Shown: in pieces, positions 15,147 through 59,896 of the stretch
Numbering within the stretch: position 1 is the first letter of the stretch
Layout: the number at the start of each line of letters is the position of its first letter
DNA from: Chitinophaga pinensis
GTDB lineage: Bacteria; Bacteroidota; Bacteroidia; UBA4408
Assembly: GCA_945861665.1 (NCBI GenBank)
Contig: CAMAVS010000011.1
Span: 1-64,000 of the forward strand
Direction of reading: 5' to 3'
Length of the DNA: 64,000 nucleotides
Notes under the pieces: model-generated
Seen by the model: only the letters and a program-made list of their open reading frames with translations
Told to the model about the DNA's origin: nothing
Databases searched by the model: none
Program-made: the position numbers and the translations under genes

Positions 15147-18100
15147 TTATTGAATAGTAAAGCGGATACTAACTCCCGAGCTGGTATTGGATGTTTTAAA
15201 GGAAGTTGAAATTTCAGGTTTCGTAATTACTCTATCGTAAAATATACGAATGTTAAGCCGTTCGCTTACTATATAATCGGCCGTAAATTTCAATGTAATA
15301 ACCGTTTGCCCTGCTGTTACTTGGTTAATTTCAGTTACTACTTGACGAAGCAACGTGTTGTTTTTTCTAATCGATACATCCGCTCTGCAATTCAAATCGC
15401 TCTTTAATTGTTTCTTAGTTCCTTGAATTGTAAAAGGTATAGTAACATCTTTAAATCGATAGCCAAGCCCCGTTATTATCTCATTGCCCTTTACTTCTGT
15501 TATCTGGGTATTTGCCATTGAAAGTGAAATGTTTCTATCGCGCTTTAACTCCACTTTAGCAAGTAAACTGTTTTGCAAGGTCATGTCAAATCCAAGCAAA
15601 GGACTAAACTGTTCTGATATAGTTGCCACATTTATTTGTCGTTTTGCAATAAAATTGTTCGATATGTCTCTCGCTAAGTCCGCTCCATTTTCGTCCTGCA
15701 AATAATTTAAGTTAGTAGTGTATGAGCCAATATTAAAGGATGAACGGTAAGCATGCGTAACCGAAATGGTTTTAAAATATTTTTTGAACAAAGCATATTT
15801 ATTTAATCCATCGTAGGATACGCGCCAATTGGGTTTTGGAATTAGTTTAAAGGCATCAATAGTTCCTGCATTTGCCGAACCATTGCTATAAGCATCTACA
15901 AAAGAAAGCAATAATACATCCTGTGCCGTTGAGTTGTAGCCATCACTAAATTCGTCAAAAACCGACAGTGAGTGTGCATTTTGTTCGCCCAATTTTTTAG
16001 AATACTTTTCACGTTTTGCCAAGAAATTTTTAAATACCTGTGATGAGTGATCGCCCTTATCATCCTTTACGAAAGATGTTCCCAAGGCTATAATCGAAAC
16101 GCTAAAGCTTCCTGTTTCGGTTTTACTTTGCCCATAGTAGCTATCCGTTAGTGGGTCGTACTTATATATTTCCTGATTGTTGCGTGTTTTTGTTCTTGTT
16201 CCTGTTAGTTCAATTTTTAAATCTTTGAAGGGTTCTAAGCTTGCTTTCGCGTTGATATTTTCATTAAATGTGCGTGTAAATGGAGTATTCACATATTCCG
16301 ATTTTGATAACCACCCATTTTTACCCGCCTGTTCGGCAAAACCGGCACTCTGTTTTCCGAATACAAATTCGTAACCTGGAGCATACAGGAAATCAGAGTT
16401 ATTGTGTACATTTCTTCCATCCGATATTCCAAATAGCGTAGTTTTTGGTAAGTAGCCCGGTAATATTGTTCCATTGGTAACGGAGTAGCTTCCCGAAATA
16501 GATTTAACGGTCATGATAAACTTAGCAATGCCAGCTAAAAATTTACTGTCACTGGGTTTTGTTTTGACAGTATCTTTTGGTATTTTTTGTTTTTTATCCT
16601 TTTCGTTTTCTAACTTTTTGGGGTCTTTTTCATCTTTCTTATCACCCTTTTTTACAACTGATTTTACGGGTGCTTTTGGCTTGGGTGAGTTTACTTTTTT
16701 AAAGTACGGAATTTTGTTGTAAAGTGTTACCATATTCAATTGAGGATTCAATTGTTTTTGATTGGAGTTTGAAATATTGTTACCTATAATTTCAGACCCC
16801 AATGGTGCTGCCGTCCAATCATAGCCGGCCGAATATTTTGCTGTAAGGGTTACCCAATTTAAAAGCGGGAATTTATTGATAGGCACATTCCACGTAGTAT
16901 TTGTACGATGATTGTAAGTCGTAGTTCTACCAAACTTTTTAGCATTGTCTATTAGCACCGATTTTATTTTGTTGATGGAATCACGCTCATTATCTATTTC
17001 TTTGTCGTAGCTGCGGAATGCCTTGCCCTCTAACTCATCCAAGGAAGCATTGTTACTTGCCGTGAAGTCAATGGATAATGCTTTTGTTATATCGTATTTA
17101 AAATCATACACCCTGTTATTTACAAATGTTTTATTGTAAGTGGGTAAAATAAGTATTTCAGCACCATCAGTAGTATTACGTGTTTTTACTTCGTTGTAAT
17201 TTCTATCCACATCCGTTCGGAAGGATAGACGGGAAGGGCCAGTATTGTAATTAATATCACGAATCAATTGTAAATACGGGGAACTTAGTTTTTTCGATTT
17301 TGAAAAAGGTTTTATGTTTTTGGGATTGGCATTAAAATTATAGGCAAGGGCCCCTTTATAATTTTTTAATCGGTTGTATTCCGTATTTATATTTCTCTTG
17401 TACACTTCATTAAATGCGTAGGATACCGACAAATTCTCAACATCGTAAAAATGTGATTTGCCCGATCCCTTTTTTTCTTTTTTTACGTTCGTAAAATTGA
17501 TACCTTTTCTGCGTGTATAATCCTTAATGATTTTAGATAAGGAGTCTCTCTCCTGTTCCATATATGTTGGATAATTATCCAAGGTGGCTTTGGTTGTAAT
17601 ATCCGGATCGAGTGGATTGTATTTTGGAGCAATCCAACCTTCGGAATAACCTGCATACATCGGAATATTTAAGCCCACTTTTTCAGGAATAAATTTACCC
17701 AAACGTATGTTCGATGAAAGATCATAATTGTAGGTATTATCCAAAGCTCGTTCATTCAACTTTTGTTCGATACTGCCGAAGCCCTGTGTTTTAATTCCCG
17801 ATGCAAGTGTAATATCAGCGAAGTCGGCAAGCTTGGCTTGTACACGACCAAGGGCTGCCCATCCGCCTTTTTCTTCAAAACCTTCCAAGCTTAATTCGTT
17901 TACCCATATTTGCGCACATTTTGCAGCACCATCATCTTTAAAGTCGGTTGCGGCAATACGTTTTGGATTTCGAATACCAATCATAATTGTTTTTACGGCA
18001 CTTAAATTCGGATTACCTACAACGGTTATCAGGTGAGCACCGTTGTCGAATGTGGTAACATATGGTGTTATTAAATTGATGCCTTGTATTTTATTAATAA

Positions 18101-21100
18101 TGTCTTGATTGCGCTTTAGTTTTGCATCTTGCAAATCGGAGAAGGTAATGTCCATGTTGTTCACAGGGCTTTGCCAAATATCTTCGCGCGAAGTGGAGCC
18201 ATTAGGAGTAACTGACAAGGTATATTCGTACTCGTAATAATTCTGGTCGAAGTCGGTTCCTAATCGAACAAACATTTTTATGTCTCCTGTGTTAAGTGCC
18301 TCTTTACCTGCTGCTTCAGCGTGTGCAAACATTTTTAAGTGTTTGTAGTTACGCATATCTAACGAAACATTTTTATAAGTAGCTCTTCCATCACCGTCTT
18401 GTAAATTACAAACACTTAAGGATAAGGATTGCTCGTTTAACAATGCTTGTGAAGTAGTTTGTAAATTTCTTTGTCTGTCAATACCAGGAGGAAGCACATA
18501 GTTGAATGGTTTTTTTGAACTGTTTTCTTCTACGTTTACTGCAGCAATATTAAAAGTTGTTTGGTAAGCATTATCGTCCTGAATGTATTCTCCGGGATAC
18601 AACAAAGAGTAATTGTATTTTCTCCAATCGCCACGGATAAGCTCTAATCGTGCAAAACGACATACAATCGGTTGGTCGAATCCTTTAAAGAACATACGCA
18701 TAAATCGCATTGAGCGCAAATCAACATCACCAACAATTCTTTCAGGCGAACGAATAGGAATTTTGAATTGGTACCATTTTATATTTCTTGTACCGTTGGG
18801 CGTTACTGCTTGCGCTTCTACCACATCGGTAATGTAGTTTTGTCCAAGTACCATACTTCCGGGAGCAAGATTGATGTGATATTGAAAATAATTTTCAGAT
18901 TGTGTAAGGTTGTTGTCTCTATTTATATCTTCGGTATTTGGTGTAGTGTTTGAACTTGTTGGATAGCCATCGGGTTGCTCGGTGGTAGAGTTTCCTTCCA
19001 ATCCATTGTATTCACTGTAACGAGTTAAAACAGGAGCACTGGCATTGTCCCAATTTGAGCTTCTGAAATACTTGTAATCATCAGCTGATGGATCGGCTTT
19101 TGCATTTGTTGTTGCGATTGAATTTGTTCCGAAAGCAGCTTCAACAGAACTAATGTAGTTTGCAAAAAATGTTGCTTCATCTGTATTGCTATAACCGTCT
19201 AATCCCACATCTTGTTTTTGTCTCTTTTCAGCGTCATTATCAAATGCATTTACCATTGGTTGAGTTAACGGCACAAGCCCCCAATTGGTATTTGTAAGCA
19301 CGTTTGTGTCGTAAGGTTTAGCAAAAGGCAATCCATTTTCAAACGATTTTCTGGAATCTTTTAATACATCTTCTGAGATGTCACCGATGTTAAAATATAA
19401 GTCACCCTTTGTGTTGGCTGCTGTAAGGTTATCATCGTTAAATGGGTCCATCATCCAAAACTGGATATAGTCCACATTGGATGCTTCGAAATCGGTGGTC
19501 TCTAATCTTCGGATAACACCTCCCCAAGTGGAAGTAGGATTTGTTAATTTTCCGTCAGCAGCCAATCCTGTTACATTAAAATTATAAGGGCCTCTTTCAT
19601 CGGGATAAAATGCAAAGTCGAGTATGGGTAAATTTGTAACAATGGCATTTGGATTTTGCCTGTTTGGAAAAATTTCTTTTTCCAATACCTCTCTTACAAA
19701 ATGATTTGATTGCGCAACCTTATCACTTTTAATGTGATCGGGTGTTAGGTTGTTGTTTCTAAAAAACAAAGGGTCAATAATGTACCAAGCTAATTTTGAA
19801 CGATTGTATCCGTAAGCTAAGTTGTTGGTTAAATTTCCTTCTGGGAATAAGTCGATCTGACCTTGAGGTACACTTGCCAGTGTCCACGATTGCTGCTGTT
19901 TTAAATCAATGGCAGACTGGCTACCTTCAAAATCATCGATGTACGAAATACCTTCTTTTCCTATTGCACGGGCGTGTCCGGGAAATAATCTGGCAACCTC
20001 ACCGGCAACTGTTAATGTGGACATTTCCTTTGTGTTAATCAAGGGGATTCTATCAATCAACTTAGTAAGAAATGGGGCTTCTGTTCTATAGGTTCCATCT
20101 AAGCCAACAATAGTATTTGATATGGGCTCATCGCCAATGTTTACTTTTTGTGTAAGGGGCCTTTCTGTTAAATTCATAAAAGTACCACCCAGTGTAAAAT
20201 CTTTGGAAAATTGATAGTCTAAATGTGTTCCAATAAGCGATTTGGTTTGGAAGGCAAATAATGCGTTGCTCTCCAACGATATTTTTATGGGTTTTCCTGA
20301 CTCCAAAATACCTTGATTTATAATTTTTACACGACCAAGTGCATAGTCAACTGTATAATCGACATTTTCAGTAAGTGGTGCACCACCAGCAGTAACTTTT
20401 ACCGACCCCTGGGGTATATTAACAGCATTTAATGGAATTTCAGAACCGGATGAAGAACTATAGCTACCACGCATTTTAAAACGATTTTTGGCAGGAATTT
20501 GCTGTGCCGCTGTTTTGGTTGAGTCGTATAATTCCTGAAACACATATTTATTTGCAAGCTGTTGTTCACCCTCAGAGAAATGATTTCGTAAGTGACTACC
20601 AAAAGGCTCTAGTACAGGAAAATATAATTTTCCATTCTTTAAATTGATAGGAATTATATCTCCTTGAATAACATCTAAGACTCCATCAGCGCCTTGATTT
20701 CCCTGCCTATTTAGTCTGTCTAATTTAAAAACTTGAAGTAATATTTTTCCGTTGATGGCGCCTTCAGAAATATAATTCACATCAACTCCTCTCTCAATGT
20801 TTGCGTGTAAAACATTTAGTTGTAAATCTTTTTCATTGATGTTGTAACCTCCAACACTGTATACGTTTTTCATCATCAAATCCCAAATCGGTAACTTAAT
20901 ACGCACACTGGTTGCTTTTAGCATTTTAAGAAAAAGCGCCTTTGGTGCAGCAACGCCATCGTTTGAAAACTCTCCTGCTTGATAGGTTTTTCCATCAACA
21001 GTATATTGGTAGGCAACAGAAAGTACAGCGCTGCTGCTTAAGGTTGAATTGAGCGAGATAAAACCTAAGCGTGGGTGAAAGGTGTATTCAGATTCTGATA

Positions 21101-22490
21101 ATTTTCTGGCGTTCTCAATTACTTCATAATCTTGTACGGGTGCAAAATTAATACCCGGTGTATTGTATATAGATAAGGTATTGATGGCATTAAAAAAGCC
21201 GCGATCGGGAAGTAAGGTATTCATGTGCGTATATAAATCATTCGAACCCTTATTGTCTGGATATCCTTTTGAATCATTTGCTGCTGCAGGGTCGTTAATA
21301 AAACCTTGTGCAAACCACGATTGATTTGGGAAATTGGAAGGAGAGTTGGTTCGTTTTGATTCACCTAAATCCGCAAAAGCAACAATGTTTCGTGTATTGT
21401 CGGTCACACCATTTTCGTTTGTTACCCATACCTCAACGCGTGCAATGTTAATTTTAGAACTTAAAATAGGAGCAGTGGACAGGGCTTTTTCGTAACTGTC
21501 TCTGAAGTATTGTGAAAGAAAAAAGTGTCGGTTCGATTCATAATTATCACCCAACACTTCAAACTTAGTAACCTGAGCTCCACCGCTAACTTCCACCTCA
21601 CTCTTTTTTCCTTTTTGTTGTGAGAAAATTGTTGTTGCTGTTAATCTTCCAAATTGCAATTTAGTTTTTATACCGAACAAGCTTTGGCTACCTGTAATTA
21701 AACTTCCATTCAGTGGTAAGCTAACATTTCCCGCTTCTATTTTTTTAATGATTTCATCCTCGAATCCTGTGTATTCTAATTTTGTTTGATTTTCCCAATC
21801 AAACGCAGCTTCGGTATTATAGTTGAGTGTAAGTTTTAATTTTTCGCCAATTTTCCCAATCATGTTAATTTGAATTTTTTGGTCGAAGTTAAAGGTGCTT
21901 ACTTTTCGTTGTTTTTCCGTTAACGCAGGATTTTCATTTCGCGATGTGTTTACACCAAAAATTAGTTCAGCCGAACCTTGTGGGCGAATATCAACGGTGT
22001 TGCCTCCAAAAATCCTATCGAACGCATCGCCTGCTACGTGTATGGGCGGTATAAGATTGTTTTTAGGATTGTTAACATTTTCAGCATCTTGACGTTTTTT
22101 CCAATTGTCTTTCAATGCTTTTTTCATATCGTAGTCCAGGTATTCCTCCATAGTCATATAGGAAGGATTGCGATAATTTATATCGCCCATTTTTTGTTTA
22201 AAAATGTATTGGCCGGTTTTTGGGTCGTACTCTAATTCATCTTTAATATTGGTAGGGTTGTTTCCGTAAAGTCCGCCCACGTGACCTTTGTCTGAAGGGT
22301 CCCAGGAGTCGTCTTTAAATGGGTAAGGAAGTTTTGTGTCTTTTGTTTTTCCTGTGTCACCAGGAAGCGTTTTTGCCGGACTTACAACGTAACGATGGTA
22401 ACGATTTACCATTGCACTCGAATTCCATATAATCAATGACAGTGTGCTAACAAAAAAGTAAAAAGGTATGCTGCTGCGCTCTATCTTCAC
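15147..22490 (-). CDS. sprA: SprA, type IX secretion outer-membrane translocon
   Basis: A 2,447-residue protein, close to the length of known SprA (about 2,400). It begins with a hydrophobic export signal (FYFFVSTLSLIIWNSS). Repeated SprA-type blocks follow, such as GITFAPVQDYEVIENARKL-like and SYIDDFEGSQSAIDLKQQQ, WYIIDPLFF, and YPGEYIQDD regions, then a long series of amphipathic strands ending in GVSIRFTIQ. SprA forms the giant beta-barrel through which type IX cargo crosses the outer membrane, and in gliding species it carries the adhesin SprB. A Lys/Pro-rich loop (about residues 1920-1980) is probably a species-specific extracellular or plug insertion. It begins 13 bases after ruvA. The many secreted proteins with sorting tails in this window are its likely clients. 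Confidence 0.96.
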   Translation of the reverse strand: MKIERSSIPFYFFVSTLSLIIWNSSAMVNRYHRYVVSPAKTLPGDTGKTKDTKLPYPFKDDSWDPSDKGHVGGLYGNNPTNIKDELEYDPKTGQYIFKQKMGDINYRNPSYMTMEEYLDYDMKKALKDNWKKRQDAENVNNPKNNLIPPIHVAGDAFDRIFGGNTVDIRPQGSAELIFGVNTSRNENPALTEKQRKVSTFNFDQKIQINMIGKIGEKLKLTLNYNTEAAFDWENQTKLEYTGFEDEIIKKIEAGNVSLPLNGSLITGSQSLFGIKTKLQFGRLTATTIFSQQKGKKSEVEVSGGAQVTKFEVLGDNYESNRHFFLSQYFRDSYEKALSTAPILSSKINIARVEVWVTNENGVTDNTRNIVAFADLGESKRTNSPSNFPNQSWFAQGFINDPAAANDSKGYPDNKGSNDLYTHMNTLLPDRGFFNAINTLSIYNTPGINFAPVQDYEVIENARKLSESEYTFHPRLGFISLNSTLSSSAVLSVAYQYTVDGKTYQAGEFSNDGVAAPKALFLKMLKATSVRIKLPIWDLMMKNVYSVGGYNINEKDLQLNVLHANIERGVDVNYISEGAINGKILLQVFKLDRLNRQGNQGADGVLDVIQGDIIPINLKNGKLYFPVLEPFGSHLRNHFSEGEQQLANKYVFQELYDSTKTAAQQIPAKNRFKMRGSYSSSSGSEIPLNAVNIPQGSVKVTAGGAPLTENVDYTVDYALGRVKIINQGILESGKPIKISLESNALFAFQTKSLIGTHLDYQFSKDFTLGGTFMNLTERPLTQKVNIGDEPISNTIVGLDGTYRTEAPFLTKLIDRIPLINTKEMSTLTVAGEVARLFPGHARAIGKEGISYIDDFEGSQSAIDLKQQQSWTLASVPQGQIDLFPEGNLTNNLAYGYNRSKLAWYIIDPLFFRNNNLTPDHIKSDKVAQSNHFVREVLEKEIFPNRQNPNAIVTNLPILDFAFYPDERGPYNFNVTGLAADGKLTNPTSTWGGVIRRLETTDFEASNVDYIQFWMMDPFNDDNLTAANTKGDLYFNIGDISEDVLKDSRKSFENGLPFAKPYDTNVLTNTNWGLVPLTQPMVNAFDNDAEKRQKQDVGLDGYSNTDEATFFANYISSVEAAFGTNSIATTNAKADPSADDYKYFRSSNWDNASAPVLTRYSEYNGLEGNSTTEQPDGYPTSSNTTPNTEDINRDNNLTQSENYFQYHINLAPGSMVLGQNYITDVVEAQAVTPNGTRNIKWYQFKIPIRSPERIVGDVDLRSMRFMRMFFKGFDQPIVCRFARLELIRGDWRKYNYSLLYPGEYIQDDNAYQTTFNIAAVNVEENSSKKPFNYVLPPGIDRQRNLQTTSQALLNEQSLSLSVCNLQDGDGRATYKNVSLDMRNYKHLKMFAHAEAAGKEALNTGDIKMFVRLGTDFDQNYYEYEYTLSVTPNGSTSREDIWQSPVNNMDITFSDLQDAKLKRNQDIINKIQGINLITPYVTTFDNGAHLITVVGNPNLSAVKTIMIGIRNPKRIAATDFKDDGAAKCAQIWVNELSLEGFEEKGGWAALGRVQAKLADFADITLASGIKTQGFGSIEQKLNERALDNTYNYDLSSNIRLGKFIPEKVGLNIPMYAGYSEGWIAPKYNPLDPDITTKATLDNYPTYMEQERDSLSKIIKDYTRRKGINFTNVKKEKKGSGKSHFYDVENLSVSYAFNEVYKRNINTEYNRLKNYKGALAYNFNANPKNIKPFSKSKKLSSPYLQLIRDINYNTGPSRLSFRTDVDRNYNEVKTRNTTDGAEILILPTYNKTFVNNRVYDFKYDITKALSIDFTASNNASLDELEGKAFRSYDKEIDNERDSINKIKSVLIDNAKKFGRTTTYNHRTNTTWNVPINKFPLLNWVTLTAKYSAGYDWTAAPLGSEIIGNNISNSNQKQLNPQLNMVTLYNKIPYFKKVNSPKPKAPVKSVVKKGDKKDEKDPKKLENEKDKKQKIPKDTVKTKPSDSKFLAGIAKFIMTVKSISGSYSVTNGTILPGYLPKTTLFGISDGRNVHNNSDFLYAPGYEFVFGKQSAGFAEQAGKNGWLSKSEYVNTPFTRTFNENINAKASLEPFKDLKIELTGTRTKTRNNQEIYKYDPLTDSYYGQSKTETGSFSVSIIALGTSFVKDDKGDHSSQVFKNFLAKREKYSKKLGEQNAHSLSVFDEFSDGYNSTAQDVLLLSFVDAYSNGSANAGTIDAFKLIPKPNWRVSYDGLNKYALFKKYFKTISVTHAYRSSFNIGSYTTNLNYLQDENGADLARDISNNFIAKRQINVATISEQFSPLLGFDMTLQNSLLAKVELKRDRNISLSMANTQITEVKGNEIITGLGYRFKDVTIPFTIQGTKKQLKSDLNCRADVSIRKNNTLLRQVVTEINQVTAGQTVITLKFTADYIVSERLNIRIFYDRVITKPEISTSFKTSNTSSGVSIRFTIQ

Positions 22491-50011: not shown

Positions 50012-50665
50012 ATGAAAAAAATCTTTACTACATTATTATTCTCATTTGTAATATTTTCAATGGCTAACGCTGCTTTTGAAATAAAACGAACTGTTTTTGT
50101 TGGTCAAAATGCACAAGGTGCAGCAGCCAATGCATTTAATTCAAATAATCTAGTTTGTTTTGTTGGAGATACCATTGAGTTTAAATGGTTTTCAGGTTCT
50201 CAGCATTTTGTAGGTGCTCTAGCAGGTCCTTGGCCGTTACAAGAAGTGTTAGTTTTGACGGGCTTTACATTTACTGCACAAACTGCAACTTATTTGTTTG
50301 TAATACCTACGGCAGGAACCTATAGCTATACTTGTTTTACTCACCCCAATATGATAGGATCATTCAATGCCATTGTGAATCCGGCAAGTGTGCAAGTAAC
50401 ACCATATTTTTCAGTTGATTTAAAATCGTATCCAAATCCTACTAAGGAAAACTTAAATGTAACATTCAATTCAAACAGTTCAACAAAAGGACAGTTTAAG
50501 GTGTATGATATTCAAGGGAAAGCTGTAATTAAGGAAGAAATTGAAATAATTCCAGGTGCAAATATCTATTCATTGTCTGTTGCTACCTTAAACAGTGGTT
50601 TGTACTTTATGGAAGTGTACCAAGATGGTAAGAAGATAGGGGTTAAAAAGTTCGCGAAGAACTAA
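50012..50665 (+). CDS. Secreted blue-copper (plastocyanin-like) protein with type IX tail
   Basis: A 217-residue exported protein. The signal peptide TLLFSFVIFSMANA is followed by a cupredoxin domain (about 22-127). Type 1 copper ligands fit GSQHF (His), then YTCFTHPNMIG, giving Cys, His and Met with C-x-x-H-x-x-M spacing. A type IX sorting tail follows (SYPNPTKENLNVTFN to GLYFMEVYQDGKKIGVKKF). It probably carries electrons or copper at the cell surface. It has its own strong terminator at 50685-50716. Confidence 0.88.
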   Translation: MKKIFTTLLFSFVIFSMANAAFEIKRTVFVGQNAQGAAANAFNSNNLVCFVGDTIEFKWFSGSQHFVGALAGPWPLQEVLVLTGFTFTAQTATYLFVIPTAGTYSYTCFTHPNMIGSFNAIVNPASVQVTPYFSVDLKSYPNPTKENLNVTFNSNSSTKGQFKVYDIQGKAVIKEEIEIIPGANIYSLSVATLNSGLYFMEVYQDGKKIGVKKFAKN

Positions 50666-54586: not shown

Positions 54587-55084
54587 TCAAATAGAAATTA
54601 TTCTGGTGGTGAAAACGCCTTTCGAATTTATAACTTTAATAAAATAAGTTCCTTTTGGATATTTGCTGATATCTAGTTGAGCTGGAGATATGGTTTTAAT
54701 TTCTCTCTTTAGTACTACTTCACCGAGTGTATTTGTTATCTCTACATTTGCATTTTGTACTCCTGTAATTGTAAAAGTCCCATTGTTTGGATTTGGATAA
54801 ACAGAGATTTTAAATTTTGATTCATCTTCTTGAACAGCAAAAAAACCACTAATCACAACAGGTGGGTATTCCGTTCCGTAAGTAGAATCAGTATTCATAC
54901 TCTTATAATGCACAATGATGCTATCTGTAATTTGTGAAGTAGGAGTTAGCATTACTCCGTAACGTTCTCCTGGCATTAGAACCAAAGTATCGGAGTTAAT
55001 ACTGGTTGGTAAAGGTTTGCCATCAGAATCAATTATTTGCGCTTGCAATGAAGACGGGAAAATTACTTGATTATTAAAAAAGCC
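54587..55084 (-). pseudogene. C-terminal fragment of a secreted multicopper oxidase-like protein with type IX tail
   Basis: The open frame starts just after an in-frame TAA (55085-55087) and has no ATG; only a TTG at 55048 could serve. FNNQVIFPSSLQAQIIDSDG, then DTLVLMPGERYGVMLTPTSQ matches the end of the second cupredoxin domain of multicopper oxidases (compare LLSPGERAEILLDLQ in the intact oxidase at 57450). It then jumps directly to a complete sorting tail (VYPNPNNGTFTITG to GTYFIKVINSKG). The first domain, the copper-binding third domain and the signal peptide are missing. It is probably a remnant of a duplicated oxidase. Confidence 0.6.
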
Positions 55085-55140
55085 TTAATATTGCACATAA
55101 AACACATCTATTTTAACCATTGATAATAAACTCGGAAACC

Positions 55141-56595
55141 ATGAAGAATAAATTATTAATTATCTTATTAAGTGTCAGTTTTTTCGCCACGGCACAAACT
55201 GGTATTACTTGGTCACCAGCTGTTAGTGTTTCAAATATGAATATGTACAGCAATCTTCATCCTCGTATTATGTTGGATGGAAGTGGTGAGCCTATGGTAC
55301 TGTGGAGTAAATCCAGTACAAAAAAGGTAGCTTTTTCGCGTTGGAGCGGGAATACATTTACGACACCTGTGTATTTGAATCCTTCACCGATAGATATTTT
55401 TACATCTTCTTGGGCAGGACCAGATTTTGCTTCCAAAGGAGATACCGTTTATGTGGTTTTTAAAAGAGAGCCTGAAATTTATGATACCAATTATATTTAT
55501 ATAGTTCGTTCTTTTGATGGAGGAGCAAATTTTTCTGCACCCATTCGTGTAGATATGATTGGGAATAAAATATCTCGGTTTCCTACAATTACCGTAGACA
55601 ATATAGGGAACCCTATTGTGGCTTTTATGAAAATTGATGCAAATTTTATGAATCCAAAGTGGGTAGTTGTAAAGTCTACTGATTATGGAAGCACCTTTTC
55701 AATGGATGTATTGGCAAGTGGTTATTCCGGAGGAAATGGCGATATATGTGATTGTTGCCCCGGTGCCATCGTTGCTTCTGGTAATAACGTTGCTATGCTT
55801 TACCGTGATAACCTGAATAATATGCGTGATATTTGGGCGGGTGTTTCAACAAATGGCGCAACTTCATTTCCAAGTGGAATGAATATCGATCAAAATAACT
55901 GGATGGTGAATGCATGTCCTTCAACTGGTCCTGATGGAATTATAGTGGGTGATACGCTTTATTCAGTTCTGATGAATCAAGCAAACGGTCCGGCTTTGGT
56001 ATATTCCGGCAAAGCATCTCTATCTGCAATGCAAGGAGGTTTAGCTCTTAATATTACAGGTGTGCTTCCTGGCATTATACAACAAAATTTTCCACGTATT
56101 GCGAATAATGGTTATGTAGCAGCTGAAGTATGGAAGCAGGTTGTAACTGGAGGAGATGCACAGATAGCATTAAAATTTTCAACCAATATTCAAAATGGAT
56201 TTATAGCAGGTTTTGATACCGTTGCTAGTAGTATGGCGAACGACATTGAAAATGCAGATGTAGCAATTGGCTATGGTGCTGTTCACGTTGTATGGCAAGA
56301 TAATAGCTCAGGTACAGTTAAATATTCGAAAGGGACTTTTATTCCTTCTGGGATTAGTAATGATTTGGGTAAGAAAACCATTTCGGTTTATCCTAACCCT
56401 TTCGAAAATGAAATAAACATTAAACTTAATTCTACCAATGATTTTTCAGTAGAAATTTTAAATACTTTAGGTGAAAATGTATTTTATGCGCATGGTCAAA
56501 GTAAAGTGAATACTTCAAAATTGGCAAATGGGATTTATTTTATAAGAGTGAAACAGGATAATGACTTGTTTATGCAAAAAATTATTAAACAATAG
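55141..56595 (+). CDS. Secreted BNR-repeat (sialidase-fold) protein with CDCCP motif and type IX tail
   Basis: A 484-residue exported protein, started at MKNKLLIILLSVSFFATA (signal peptide). The body is a beta-propeller of the sialidase/BNR type with Asp-box-like repeats (SFDGGANFSAP, STDYGSTFSMD, STNGATSFPSG). No catalytic sialidase set (Arg triad) is apparent. A GDICDCCPGAIVAS segment (about residue 205-218) has three Cys in a row that could bind metal. A sorting tail ends it (VYPNPFENEINIKLN to GIYFIRVKQDN). Flanked by copper proteins, it may bind copper; this is inference. Confidence 0.82.
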   Translation: MKNKLLIILLSVSFFATAQTGITWSPAVSVSNMNMYSNLHPRIMLDGSGEPMVLWSKSSTKKVAFSRWSGNTFTTPVYLNPSPIDIFTSSWAGPDFASKGDTVYVVFKREPEIYDTNYIYIVRSFDGGANFSAPIRVDMIGNKISRFPTITVDNIGNPIVAFMKIDANFMNPKWVVVKSTDYGSTFSMDVLASGYSGGNGDICDCCPGAIVASGNNVAMLYRDNLNNMRDIWAGVSTNGATSFPSGMNIDQNNWMVNACPSTGPDGIIVGDTLYSVLMNQANGPALVYSGKASLSAMQGGLALNITGVLPGIIQQNFPRIANNGYVAAEVWKQVVTGGDAQIALKFSTNIQNGFIAGFDTVASSMANDIENADVAIGYGAVHVVWQDNSSGTVKYSKGTFIPSGISNDLGKKTISVYPNPFENEINIKLNSTNDFSVEILNTLGENVFYAHGQSKVNTSKLANGIYFIRVKQDNDLFMQKIIKQ

Positions 56596-56639
56596 TGTAA
56601 GGTTGAAAAGGAATTTTAAATTTATAATTAACATTTTTG

Positions 56640-56647
56640 TAACTTTG
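56640..56647 (+). promoter_or_regulatory. Minus-7 box upstream of the thioredoxin-like gene
   Basis: TAACTTTG matches TAnnTTTG, 18 bases before the ATG at 56666, and confirms the later start over the ORF track's 56561. Confidence 0.55.
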
Positions 56648-56665
56648 AACACAAATAAATCAAAA

Positions 56666-57448
56666 ATGAAAAAATCTTTACTAATTATCGCTTTGATGTT
56701 TACAGTTGTGATTTCCAAAGCACAAAATGTAATGCAATTAAACGGAGCCGACTGTAATGGAAATATGCACGATTTGTATGCAGATTTAAATGCAGGAAAA
56801 GCTGTAATACTGCACTTTTTTATGCCAAATTGTGGCTCTTGTCCGCCACCTGCACAAAAAATTCAGACAATGGCAAACAGAATATTATTAGCACATCCTG
56901 GCAAAATTACTGCCTATGCAATGCCTTACAATAATACTACAACTTGTGCAGCTACTGCATCTTGGGTTTCTTCAAATGGTCTTTCATTATATATGCCATA
57001 TGATAGTGGTGCAACACAAGTAGCCAATTACGGAGGATTTGGTATGCCAACCATAGTTTTATTGGGAGGAACAAATCATCGTGTGATGTTTTCTACTCAA
57101 AGTTTTTCAACAAGCGATACGCTTATTATGAGAGATTCAATCTTAAACTTGTTATATGGTCCTGCAGGAATAAGTAAGGAGCAGAATTTTGTTTCAAATG
57201 TTTCTGTATATCCAAACCCCGCAAACGACAAAGTACAATTGGAATTAAATATTATTCAGTCTTCATATATAAAAATTGAAGTGGTAAATTTGTTAGGAGA
57301 GGTAGTTGCAAATGTATACGAAAGTAAAATTGGAGAAGGTGTTTTAAGAAAGGAAATTCCAACAACAGCATTAAGTAACGGTACGTATTTTATACGTGTG
57401 AATGATGGAAATAAGTCACAAAACCATAAGTTTACAGTAATACATTAA
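56666..57448 (+). CDS. Secreted thioredoxin/TlpA-like protein with type IX tail
   Basis: A 260-residue exported protein: signal peptide LLIIALMFTVVISKA, then a thioredoxin fold (about 20-165) with the active site MPNCGSCPPPAQK. VILHFFMPNC before it is the typical strand. FGMPTIVLLGGTN carries the cis-Pro. A sorting tail closes it (VYPNPANDKVQLELN to GTYFIRVNDGNKS). It could reduce disulfides or hand over metal for the oxidase that follows one base later. The pair with the oxidase suggests a common job. Confidence 0.88.
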   Translation: MKKSLLIIALMFTVVISKAQNVMQLNGADCNGNMHDLYADLNAGKAVILHFFMPNCGSCPPPAQKIQTMANRILLAHPGKITAYAMPYNNTTTCAATASWVSSNGLSLYMPYDSGATQVANYGGFGMPTIVLLGGTNHRVMFSTQSFSTSDTLIMRDSILNLLYGPAGISKEQNFVSNVSVYPNPANDKVQLELNIIQSSYIKIEVVNLLGEVVANVYESKIGEGVLRKEIPTTALSNGTYFIRVNDGNKSQNHKFTVIH

Positions 57449-57449
57449 T

Positions 57450-59198
57450 TTGAAAGTGAAGCAGGCTTTTAGTTGTAAAATAATAATAGGAGTGGCATTT
57501 ATATTTATCGTTGCCACTTCTTTTGTGTATTCGCAAAATCCACTTTTTATTCCACCTACTCTTACTGGATTAAATTTCAATTTGGATATTCAAAACGGAA
57601 TAACACAATTCTATCCGGGAATAAACACACCTACCTATGGTATTAATGGTGCCTTACTTGCACCAACTTTGATTGTAAATAAAGGGGATGTTGTAACTTT
57701 GAATGTAACAAATAATTTAGTGGGATTTGGCAATTCAACTACCATACATTGGCATGGTTTGCACGTGCCAGCAATGGACGATGGTGGGCCACATCAGGTA
57801 ATTCCTCAAGGGAGTACTTGGAGCCCGAATTTTCAAATATTGAATAATGCAGGTACATTTTGGTATCATCCACACGGTGATAATAAAACCGATTTGCACG
57901 TTTCGAAAGGAATTGCAGGAATGATTATTGTGAAAGACCCAACTGAGGCCGCACTTACTTTACCTCGAACTTATGGAGTGGATGATTTTCCGATTATAGT
58001 CCAATCAAAAGCATTTGATGTGTTAAATCAAATTGCAATTTCTACGGAGGAAGATACTGCAATATGTGTGAATGGAACTATGTTTCCTTATTTAGATGCA
58101 CCATCACAAGTAATTCGTTTGCGACTACTAAATGGATCGTCTACAAGATCATATAATTTTGGATTCACAGCAAACAAGTCCTTTAAAATGATTGCCACTG
58201 ATGCGGGGCTATTGGACAGCGCTATTACACTTACCCGAATTTTATTGAGTCCGGGTGAAAGAGCTGAAATACTGCTCGATTTACAAGGAATGCAAGGGCA
58301 AACAATTTTTTTAAACAGTTTTAGTTCGGAGCTGCAAAACGGGATATATGGTGCTGCAACTGTTATAGGTATGATGGGAGGAACAATTCCTGATTACAAT
58401 TTAAACCCTTTGAATGGTGCCGATTTTGGAATACTTAAAATTAATGTTGTTGCTCAATTTGCAAATCCTATTCTTACTTTACCAACAACATTAATTACGA
58501 ATGCTCCTTGGGGAGCTTATACTGTTTCTCGAAATTTTGTCCTTCGCCCAGATACGATGATGAATGCTCAAGCGCAAGTAGAAGGTCCATTCAATATCAA
58601 TGGATTTCATTTTGATATGAATGTTGTAAATGATACTGTTCATCTAAATGATATTGAAAAATGGCGGGTAACCAACAATACGGGCATTGCACATCCGTTC
58701 CATATCCACGATATGCATTTTTATTTATTGAATAAAAATGGAGCTGCAGTTCCTAAAAGTGAGATGGGAAAAAAAGATGTTGTATTGGTACTGCCGAATC
58801 AATATGTTGAGTTTGTTACCAAGTTTGAAGATTTTGCAAATGATACAGTCCCTTATATGTATCACTGCCACTTACTTCATCACGAGGACGATGGTATGAT
58901 GGGTTCCTTTATTGTGATTGATACAACATTATCGGCTATTTCAAAAAATAGTTGGGAAGGAAATATTACATTGTTCCCTAATCCTTCATCATCAACAATT
59001 ACATTACAATCAGCTATTGATTTTAAAAATGCAGAAATAAAAATAATAAATGTTTTCGGACAGGTTGTTTTAATTGAAAATATAAGCATTTCTTTAAATT
59101 CTGTAAAAGTCGACTTAACAGAACTTAATAGTGGAATTTATGTGTTTCTTTTAAAAGAGAACAATAAATTGTTTACTCAAAAATTTATTAAGCAATAA
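57450..59198 (+). CDS. Secreted multicopper oxidase with type IX tail
   Basis: A 582-residue exported enzyme with a complete set of copper motifs: TTIHWHGLHVPAMDDGG and TFWYHPHGDNKTDLH in domain 1, HPFHIHDMHFYLL in domain 3, and MYHCHLLHHEDDGMMGSF with the Cys-His pathway and axial Met. Domain 2 shows LLSPGERAEILLDLQG. A type IX sorting tail follows (LFPNPSSSTITLQS to GIYVFLLKENNK). Start is TTG at 57450 or GTG at 57456, just before the signal peptide. It is of the CueO/bilirubin-oxidase type and may oxidise Cu(I) or phenols outside the cell. It begins one base after the thioredoxin-like gene. Confidence 0.92.
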   Translation: MKVKQAFSCKIIIGVAFIFIVATSFVYSQNPLFIPPTLTGLNFNLDIQNGITQFYPGINTPTYGINGALLAPTLIVNKGDVVTLNVTNNLVGFGNSTTIHWHGLHVPAMDDGGPHQVIPQGSTWSPNFQILNNAGTFWYHPHGDNKTDLHVSKGIAGMIIVKDPTEAALTLPRTYGVDDFPIIVQSKAFDVLNQIAISTEEDTAICVNGTMFPYLDAPSQVIRLRLLNGSSTRSYNFGFTANKSFKMIATDAGLLDSAITLTRILLSPGERAEILLDLQGMQGQTIFLNSFSSELQNGIYGAATVIGMMGGTIPDYNLNPLNGADFGILKINVVAQFANPILTLPTTLITNAPWGAYTVSRNFVLRPDTMMNAQAQVEGPFNINGFHFDMNVVNDTVHLNDIEKWRVTNNTGIAHPFHIHDMHFYLLNKNGAAVPKSEMGKKDVVLVLPNQYVEFVTKFEDFANDTVPYMYHCHLLHHEDDGMMGSFIVIDTTLSAISKNSWEGNITLFPNPSSSTITLQSAIDFKNAEIKIINVFGQVVLIENISISLNSVKVDLTELNSGIYVFLLKENNKLFTQKFIKQ

Positions 59199-59234
59199 AA
59201 TTTTCAAACATTTATTGTTCAAAATAATAGATAT

Positions 59235-59309
59235 ATGATAAAGAAGATTGGTCTTGCTTTTTTAAGTATACTATCGTCAATTTTTATAAAGAAGGGTTGT
59301 TGTAAATAG
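59235..59309 (+). CDS. Micro-ORF with terminal Cys pair
   Basis: A 24-residue frame, MIKKIGLAFLSILSSIFIKK then GCCK, 36 bases after the oxidase stop and convergent with the AraC-type regulator. It is a single hydrophobic helix with basic ends and a Cys-Cys pair. The start region has no clear box. It may be chance, but the Cys pair beside a copper cluster is notable. Confidence 0.3.
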   Translation: MIKKIGLAFLSILSSIFIKKGCCK

Positions 59310-59320
59310 TTTTAAGTTCG

Positions 59321-59896
59321 TTATAATATATTTAACGGCTTTCGAGTTTTAATATCCAGTTTTTTGTATTCGCCCATTGATAGGCCGGTTATGGATTTAA
59401 ATTGATTCGAAAGGTGTTGAGGGTTTTTATATCCAAGTAAGTATGCTATTTCAGCGAAAGAATTTTCGTTGTATTCAATTAATTCTTTTGCTCTCTCAAT
59501 ACGTTGCAGAATGGCATACTTCTCAATCGTAATTTTTGTGTTTTTTGAAAAAATAGTACTTACTTGATTGTATGATTTTGCTGTTATATCAGTAATATAT
59601 TTTGAAAGGGAAAAATTCGCATTATTTGTTTTGTTTTGGTAAATAAGCTGAGTGATGGCATTCTTAATTTTTTCAACCATTTTTTCTTCATTGCTCAATA
59701 ATATTTGAAAACCGTTTTTATACAATGAATTTTCAATCGATTCAACTGATATACTCTTATTGGAAACAAAAGTAGCATTTCCTAAATTTACAGATACTAC
59801 ATTTGCTCCGAGTGCTTTTAACACATCGTTCACTACTTTAATACAGCGATCACAAACCATATTTTTTATTTGTATGGTAGTGGTTTCAATTGTCAT
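59321..59896 (-). CDS. AraC-family regulator fused to a heavy-metal-associated domain
   Basis: A 191-residue protein. The N-terminus (about 1-65) has the ferredoxin-like fold of copper chaperones: IQIKNMVCDRCIKVVNDVLK with the metal-binding C-x-x-C. The strands VSVNLGNATFV and VESIENSLYKNGFQ complete the fold. The C-terminus (about 105-185) is an AraC DNA-binding domain (IERAKELIEYNENSFAEIAY; YKNPQHLSNQFKSITGLS). It probably senses copper or a related metal directly and controls the adjacent oxidase cluster. It is shorter than classic AraC proteins because the sugar-binding domain is replaced. Confidence 0.88.
   Translation of the reverse strand: MTIETTTIQIKNMVCDRCIKVVNDVLKALGANVVSVNLGNATFVSNKSISVESIENSLYKNGFQILLSNEEKMVEKIKNAITQLIYQNKTNNANFSLSKYITDITAKSYNQVSTIFSKNTKITIEKYAILQRIERAKELIEYNENSFAEIAYLLGYKNPQHLSNQFKSITGLSMGEYKKLDIKTRKPLNIL

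Follow-up and report, generated by a model that had tools for sequence, protein, structure and literature searches.

Positions 55141–59198 of the 64,000-nucleotide stretch of DNA analysed here (the window), together with the regulatory gene at 59321–59896, probably constitute a copper-tolerance module of Bacteroidota whose effector proteins, judging from their sequences, would be sent outward through the type IX secretion system (T9SS). All the open reading frames listed for this cluster in a preliminary description were found at the coordinates given there, and gene starts were refined. The forward strand encodes a CDCCP-bearing protein predicted to fold as a sialidase-like six-bladed β-propeller (55141–56595), a CGSC thioredoxin-like protein (TRX, 56666–57448, ATG at 56666) and a three-domain multicopper oxidase (MCO, 57450–59198, with a TTG start), each ending in a T9SS tail. 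Since the three genes are co-directional, with gaps of 70 bp between the propeller and TRX genes and of 1 bp between the TRX stop and the MCO start, they probably form one operon, with the propeller as its first gene and the intergenic region at 55049–55140 (forward strand) as its presumed promoter. The HMA-AraC regulator gene (59321–59896), which encodes an N-terminal MVCDRC heavy-metal domain and a C-terminal AraC helix-turn-helix, lies on the opposite strand and converges on this operon.

The MCO retained all four copper motifs (HWHG, WYHPH, HPFHIH and HCHLLHHEDDGM) and was the sole PF07732 oxidase of the genome. It is a CueO-like protein that matched 105 solved chains at E values below 1e-10, and it shares with CueO, the periplasmic cuprous oxidase of E. 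coli, the three-domain architecture and the full set of copper motifs, CueO providing both the nearest solved structures and the best NCBIfam model. However, the score against the curated NCBIfam CueO model was 322 bits, below the cut-off of 525, and that against TIGR01480 was 104, the cut-off being 479. The Cu(I) substrate site of CueO, D439/M441, ahead of HPFHIH, was replaced by T and I in the window protein (TGIAHPFHIH), its relatives presenting TxVA or TxIA, and the Met-rich segment was missing. Because these Cu(I) substrate residues are lacking, the sequence of the MCO gives no backing to a CueO-type cuprous oxidase activity. The window enzyme also differs from CueO in its T9SS tail and in its partners and regulator, CueR, the regulator of CueO, being of the MerR type. 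As to the Tat export to the periplasm that characterises CueO, what was seen in the MCO was a Sec-type signal peptide along with that tail.

The TRX presented a cis-Pro motif, GMPT, in which the Met was invariant and the Pro nearly so among 17 relatives, and both cysteines of the CxxC, as well as the further C73, were invariant in the same set; the Pfam Thioredoxin_2 score was 16.3, below the cut-off of 27. In one locus (L130, 5726–6508) the TRX gene was split by a frame break, due to either decay or an assembly error, as was the propeller gene in L147 (8938–10397).

Except for its tail, the propeller matched nothing in Pfam above cut-off (BNR 16.2 versus 27; BNR_2 13.6 versus 31.4). The AlphaFold model (pLDDT 91, pTM 0.83) matched sialidase folds in Foldseek at 10–13% identity, so that the predicted fold is that of the sialidase (BNR/Asp-box) propellers, from which the window protein is set apart by this low identity, its copper neighbourhood and an invariant CDCC + C pattern. 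The cysteines C203, C205 and C206 of CDCC and a fourth one, C259, were kept in 36 of 36 relatives. In the numbering of alignment A4, C184/186/187 precede the strand 190–194 and C240 precedes the strand 246–250; from their position in the loops of the model, the four cysteines would lie in equivalent loops ahead of consecutive inner strands of adjacent blades, which makes a four-cysteine metal site, or disulfides, plausible. Relatives of the propeller devoid of the tail retained CxCC, and some of them were found beside copper genes (L103–L105, with Csp-type and CopA genes), HMA-AraC adjoining the untailed propeller in L104 and L105. Untailed CxCC propellers were also observed directly adjoining TonB-dependent receptors (L100, L102, L106 and L036), suggesting that such pairs may be a copper uptake variant.

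T9SS type A tails scored above curated cut-offs in the propeller, the TRX, the MCO, an oxidase remnant at 54587–55048 and a cupredoxin at 50012–50665 (44.9–53 bits versus 27 for Pfam; 43–53 bits versus 23 for TIGR04183). Tails alone are not rare in this genome, which contained 119 TIGR04183 matches, and simple arithmetic from this number, assuming about 2,150 genes, indicated that random placement would bring four tailed genes together only about 0.02 times per genome. The T9SS translocon gene SprA was encoded in the window itself (15150–22265, 2615 bits). The propeller, the TRX and the MCO are therefore predicted to be sent via T9SS to the cell surface or the medium.

Two other tailed proteins that the preliminary description had counted in the copper system did not withstand closer analysis. 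The oxidase fragment (54587–55048, reverse strand) corresponds to a 3′ end with its T9SS tail; it lacks its own start and breaks off at the upstream region of the propeller. Its best match was not the neighbouring MCO but a 394-aa oxidase from the copper island of one Crocinitomicaceae genome (L152; 40% identity over 60 aa, E = 2e-10). A working oxidase was therefore rejected for this region, which by its sequence is probably a decayed, non-functional remnant of a second, different oxidase. Similarly, the blue-copper protein lying 4 kb to the left is a cupredoxin with amicyanin-like C-x2-H-x2-M ligands, separated from the cluster by unrelated genes; in the comparison of 73 propeller loci described below, it was seen beside the propeller in no other locus, and its membership was rejected for this lack of co-occurrence.

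The regulator required evidence from its relatives, since the HMA part of the window protein alone fell below the Pfam cut-off (15.9 versus 24.8 bits). The HMA domain was matched in 4 of 4 relatives (best E = 7e-4), in hhalign the window protein matched an HMA domain encoded by its own genome (E = 7e-5), and MxCxxC was invariant in the family. HMA-AraC proteins were present in 205 of 395 genomes of the class. When 20 of their neighbourhoods were taken, all 18 that were readable had copper genes within five genes, counting CopA/HMBD, Cus, HMA-MauE, MCO and Csp. The window member is thus like other HMA-AraC regulators of Bacteroidota in its MxCxxC domain, helix-turn-helix and nearby copper genes, and unlike them in having exported proteins as neighbours. 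No operator common to the operon promoter (55049–55140) and the regulator promoter was found above shuffled controls, and no characterised HMA-AraC member was found in the open-licence literature searched. Because the regulator is convergent in the window, its link to the operon is drawn from other genomes.

In short, the preliminary reading of the individual proteins was upheld for the sorting tails of all four proteins that it had listed, the completeness of the oxidase, the CGSC thioredoxin-like protein with its CxxC and cis-Pro motif, and the AraC regulator with a copper-chaperone domain; the CDCCP motif of the so-called BNR protein proved genuine, and the predicted fold of this protein is that of BNR propellers, the Pfam profile being below cut-off.

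The proposed link to copper was supported when 73 different propeller loci, drawn from across Bacteroidota, were set against 20 control stretches of these genomes. A related MCO was found within 3 kb in 22 of the 73 loci (Fisher p = 0.002), a TRX relative within 9 kb in 32 (p = 6e-5) and the tailed family P228 in 15 (p = 0.019), and none of them occurred in any of the 20 controls. Among the recurrent neighbours were Cus efflux, CopA (a label that here also covers small HMBD lipoproteins, one seed having an HMBD domain), metal-binding lipoproteins, HMA-MauE and an HMA-AraC regulator of the same family as that of the window. The reciprocal search centred on the MCO, which used trimmed seeds, revealed in 37 readable loci a TRX near 15, mostly directly adjacent and the most constant partner of the oxidase, HMA-AraC near 5 and a copper gene near 10. 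Complete islands were recognized in L074, L121, L153, L147 and L126, that of L074 reading TRX-P228-MCO-propeller-HMBD-HMA-AraC-HMA-MauE-CusA-CusC-CusB. L224 and L267 present TRX-MCO-HMA-AraC-HMA-MauE with Cus genes, which is the order of the window minus the propeller, but with the regulator gene of the window on the opposite strand. Far above chance from the propeller, the MCO and the regulator as starting points, the conservation of the gene set, and its recurrence beside Cus efflux, CopA, HMBD and HMA genes in many families, bear out the copper-handling assignment. As this gene set recurs beside copper genes across Bacteroidota and in 0 of 20 controls, the link of the cluster to copper, as read from sequence, is convincing and well supported.

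This conservation is far from rigid. In 34 of the 73 propeller loci, about half, neither a recognised copper gene nor P228 lay within 9 kb, and the trees of the three genes (propeller, TRX and MCO) were incongruent (Mantel r of 0.19 with p = 0.08, 0.28 with p = 0.11, and –0.11), so that strict co-inheritance was not supported and the module appears to have been assembled and exchanged piecewise. The propeller was not found in the window organism's own family, a member of which (G004) has the TRX-P228-MCO set. P228, absent from the window, is an Ig-like family whose members carry the tail and invariant cysteines of the CDNxxC type and were observed beside the MCO and the propeller (L140, 6520–7215; L121, 6528–7223; and others); it showed no Pfam domain besides the tail, and its predicted fold, of moderate confidence, was an Ig-like sandwich with no informative match. 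Small secreted Cys-rich proteins of the HYC/HWC...CC type head many such operons (for example, L074_14, L121_7, L126_15 and L153_4) and were near 12 of the 37 MCO loci. Tailed CxxCH proteins, Reeler-like or cytochrome-like, were also seen inside copper islands (L121, 5690–6526 and 10395–11984; L147, 10312–12165).

The window genome (G000; 2,494,644 bases, 99.8% complete) yielded no P-type ATPase of any kind (PF00122), a family found in 19 of the 21 genomes of the same search and missing only from G000 and G001, of the same family. If this absence is real, a larger share of the copper defence of this organism could fall to the exported oxidase. Contig C2 of this genome encodes a CusA-type pump with an additional domain fused to it, and a second metal locus was observed on contig C5 (L099, 7452–10632), with a His-rich propeller-like protein, HMA-MauE, a secreted HMA protein and an outer-membrane-like protein.

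The usual accounts of bacterial copper defence place sensing in the cytoplasm and oxidation in the periplasm, along with efflux, and E. coli confines this defence to the compartment enclosed by its outer membrane. In the module proposed here, excess cytoplasmic copper(I) would bind the MxCxxC of HMA-AraC and switch the operon on. Outside the outer membrane, the MCO would oxidise Cu(I), or a Cu(I)-making reductant, to the less toxic Cu(II), a role suggested by its family and its neighbours. The CDCCP propeller may bind copper via its four invariant cysteines, either sequestering it or handing it to the oxidase, and the TRX may maintain the appropriate redox state of the propeller thiols or of the copper sites. 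That the suspected system is extracellular rather than of the CueO type was thus sustained in part: the predicted location and the absence of the CueO Cu(I) residues from the MCO speak for it, whereas several islands hold a second oxidase of the PcoA/CopA type. Oxidases of this type resemble the MCO in occupying copper-resistance islands that pair an oxidase with Cus efflux, but they are Met-rich, have 706–851 aa and are devoid of a T9SS-type C-terminus. They share islands with relatives of the MCO in L077, L117, L126 and L127, and therefore the exported system probably complements, and does not replace, the cell-internal copper defence in genomes with this second oxidase.

Among the other explanations, the one that survives best, even if unlikely, is that the exported MCO is a laccase-like enzyme acting on organics such as phenols or catechols, the TRX and the propeller serving to load copper or to assist folding, in which case the regulation would reflect cofactor supply and not detoxification. 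The missing CueO Cu(I) residues and Met-rich segment, the stability of the TRX–MCO partnership and the separate Met-rich PcoA-type oxidase of several islands would all fit such an enzyme. Nevertheless, genes for copper efflux and copper binding (Cus/CopA/HMBD/HMA) recur beside the MCO, and no aromatic catabolism genes were found among the neighbours examined. It is distinctly improbable that the propeller and the oxidase capture external copper for uptake, that is, for acquisition and not defence: the untailed CxCC propellers beside TonB-dependent receptors would agree with this, but the tailed propellers are accompanied by efflux genes, and the window cluster contains no TonB receptor. Slightly less credible still is a surface redox chain, in which the oxidase, the TRX and CxxCH/Reeler-like tailed proteins would conduct electrons outside the cell, copper being the redox metal, for tailed CxxCH proteins share operons with the copper genes in L121 and L147 but are absent from the window and were noticed in few loci. 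Finally, that unrelated T9SS cargo genes came to adjoin by chance, conceivable in a genome as cargo-rich as this one, is highly improbable and was rejected by the controls and the conservation, since the same gene families are found side by side in further families of the phylum, against 0 of 20 controls.

With copper tolerance as the preferred reading, the window would present a copper module built around an oxidase, transferred to the exterior of the cell and equipped with new partner families, both mechanism and location being deduced from sequence. The open-licence literature searched yielded no account of copper oxidases exported by T9SS, nor of a cluster of this kind. It is tentatively proposed, with rather less assurance than the tolerance function itself, that these genes represent an undescribed form of extracellular copper handling in Bacteroidota, comprising a T9SS-exported oxidase, an exported family of Cu(I)-binding four-cysteine propellers, a thiol-redox protein, P228 and an HMA-AraC sensor, and present in the window in an organism without a P-type copper ATPase. 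If true, such an exported module would carry copper chemistry past the outer membrane, with the possibility of protecting neighbouring cells or acting on the surroundings, and it would assign a function to propellers and tail-bearing proteins that now have no family or function. Moreover, HMA-AraC, which roughly one in two of the sampled genomes of the class carries, would be a main copper regulator of the group.
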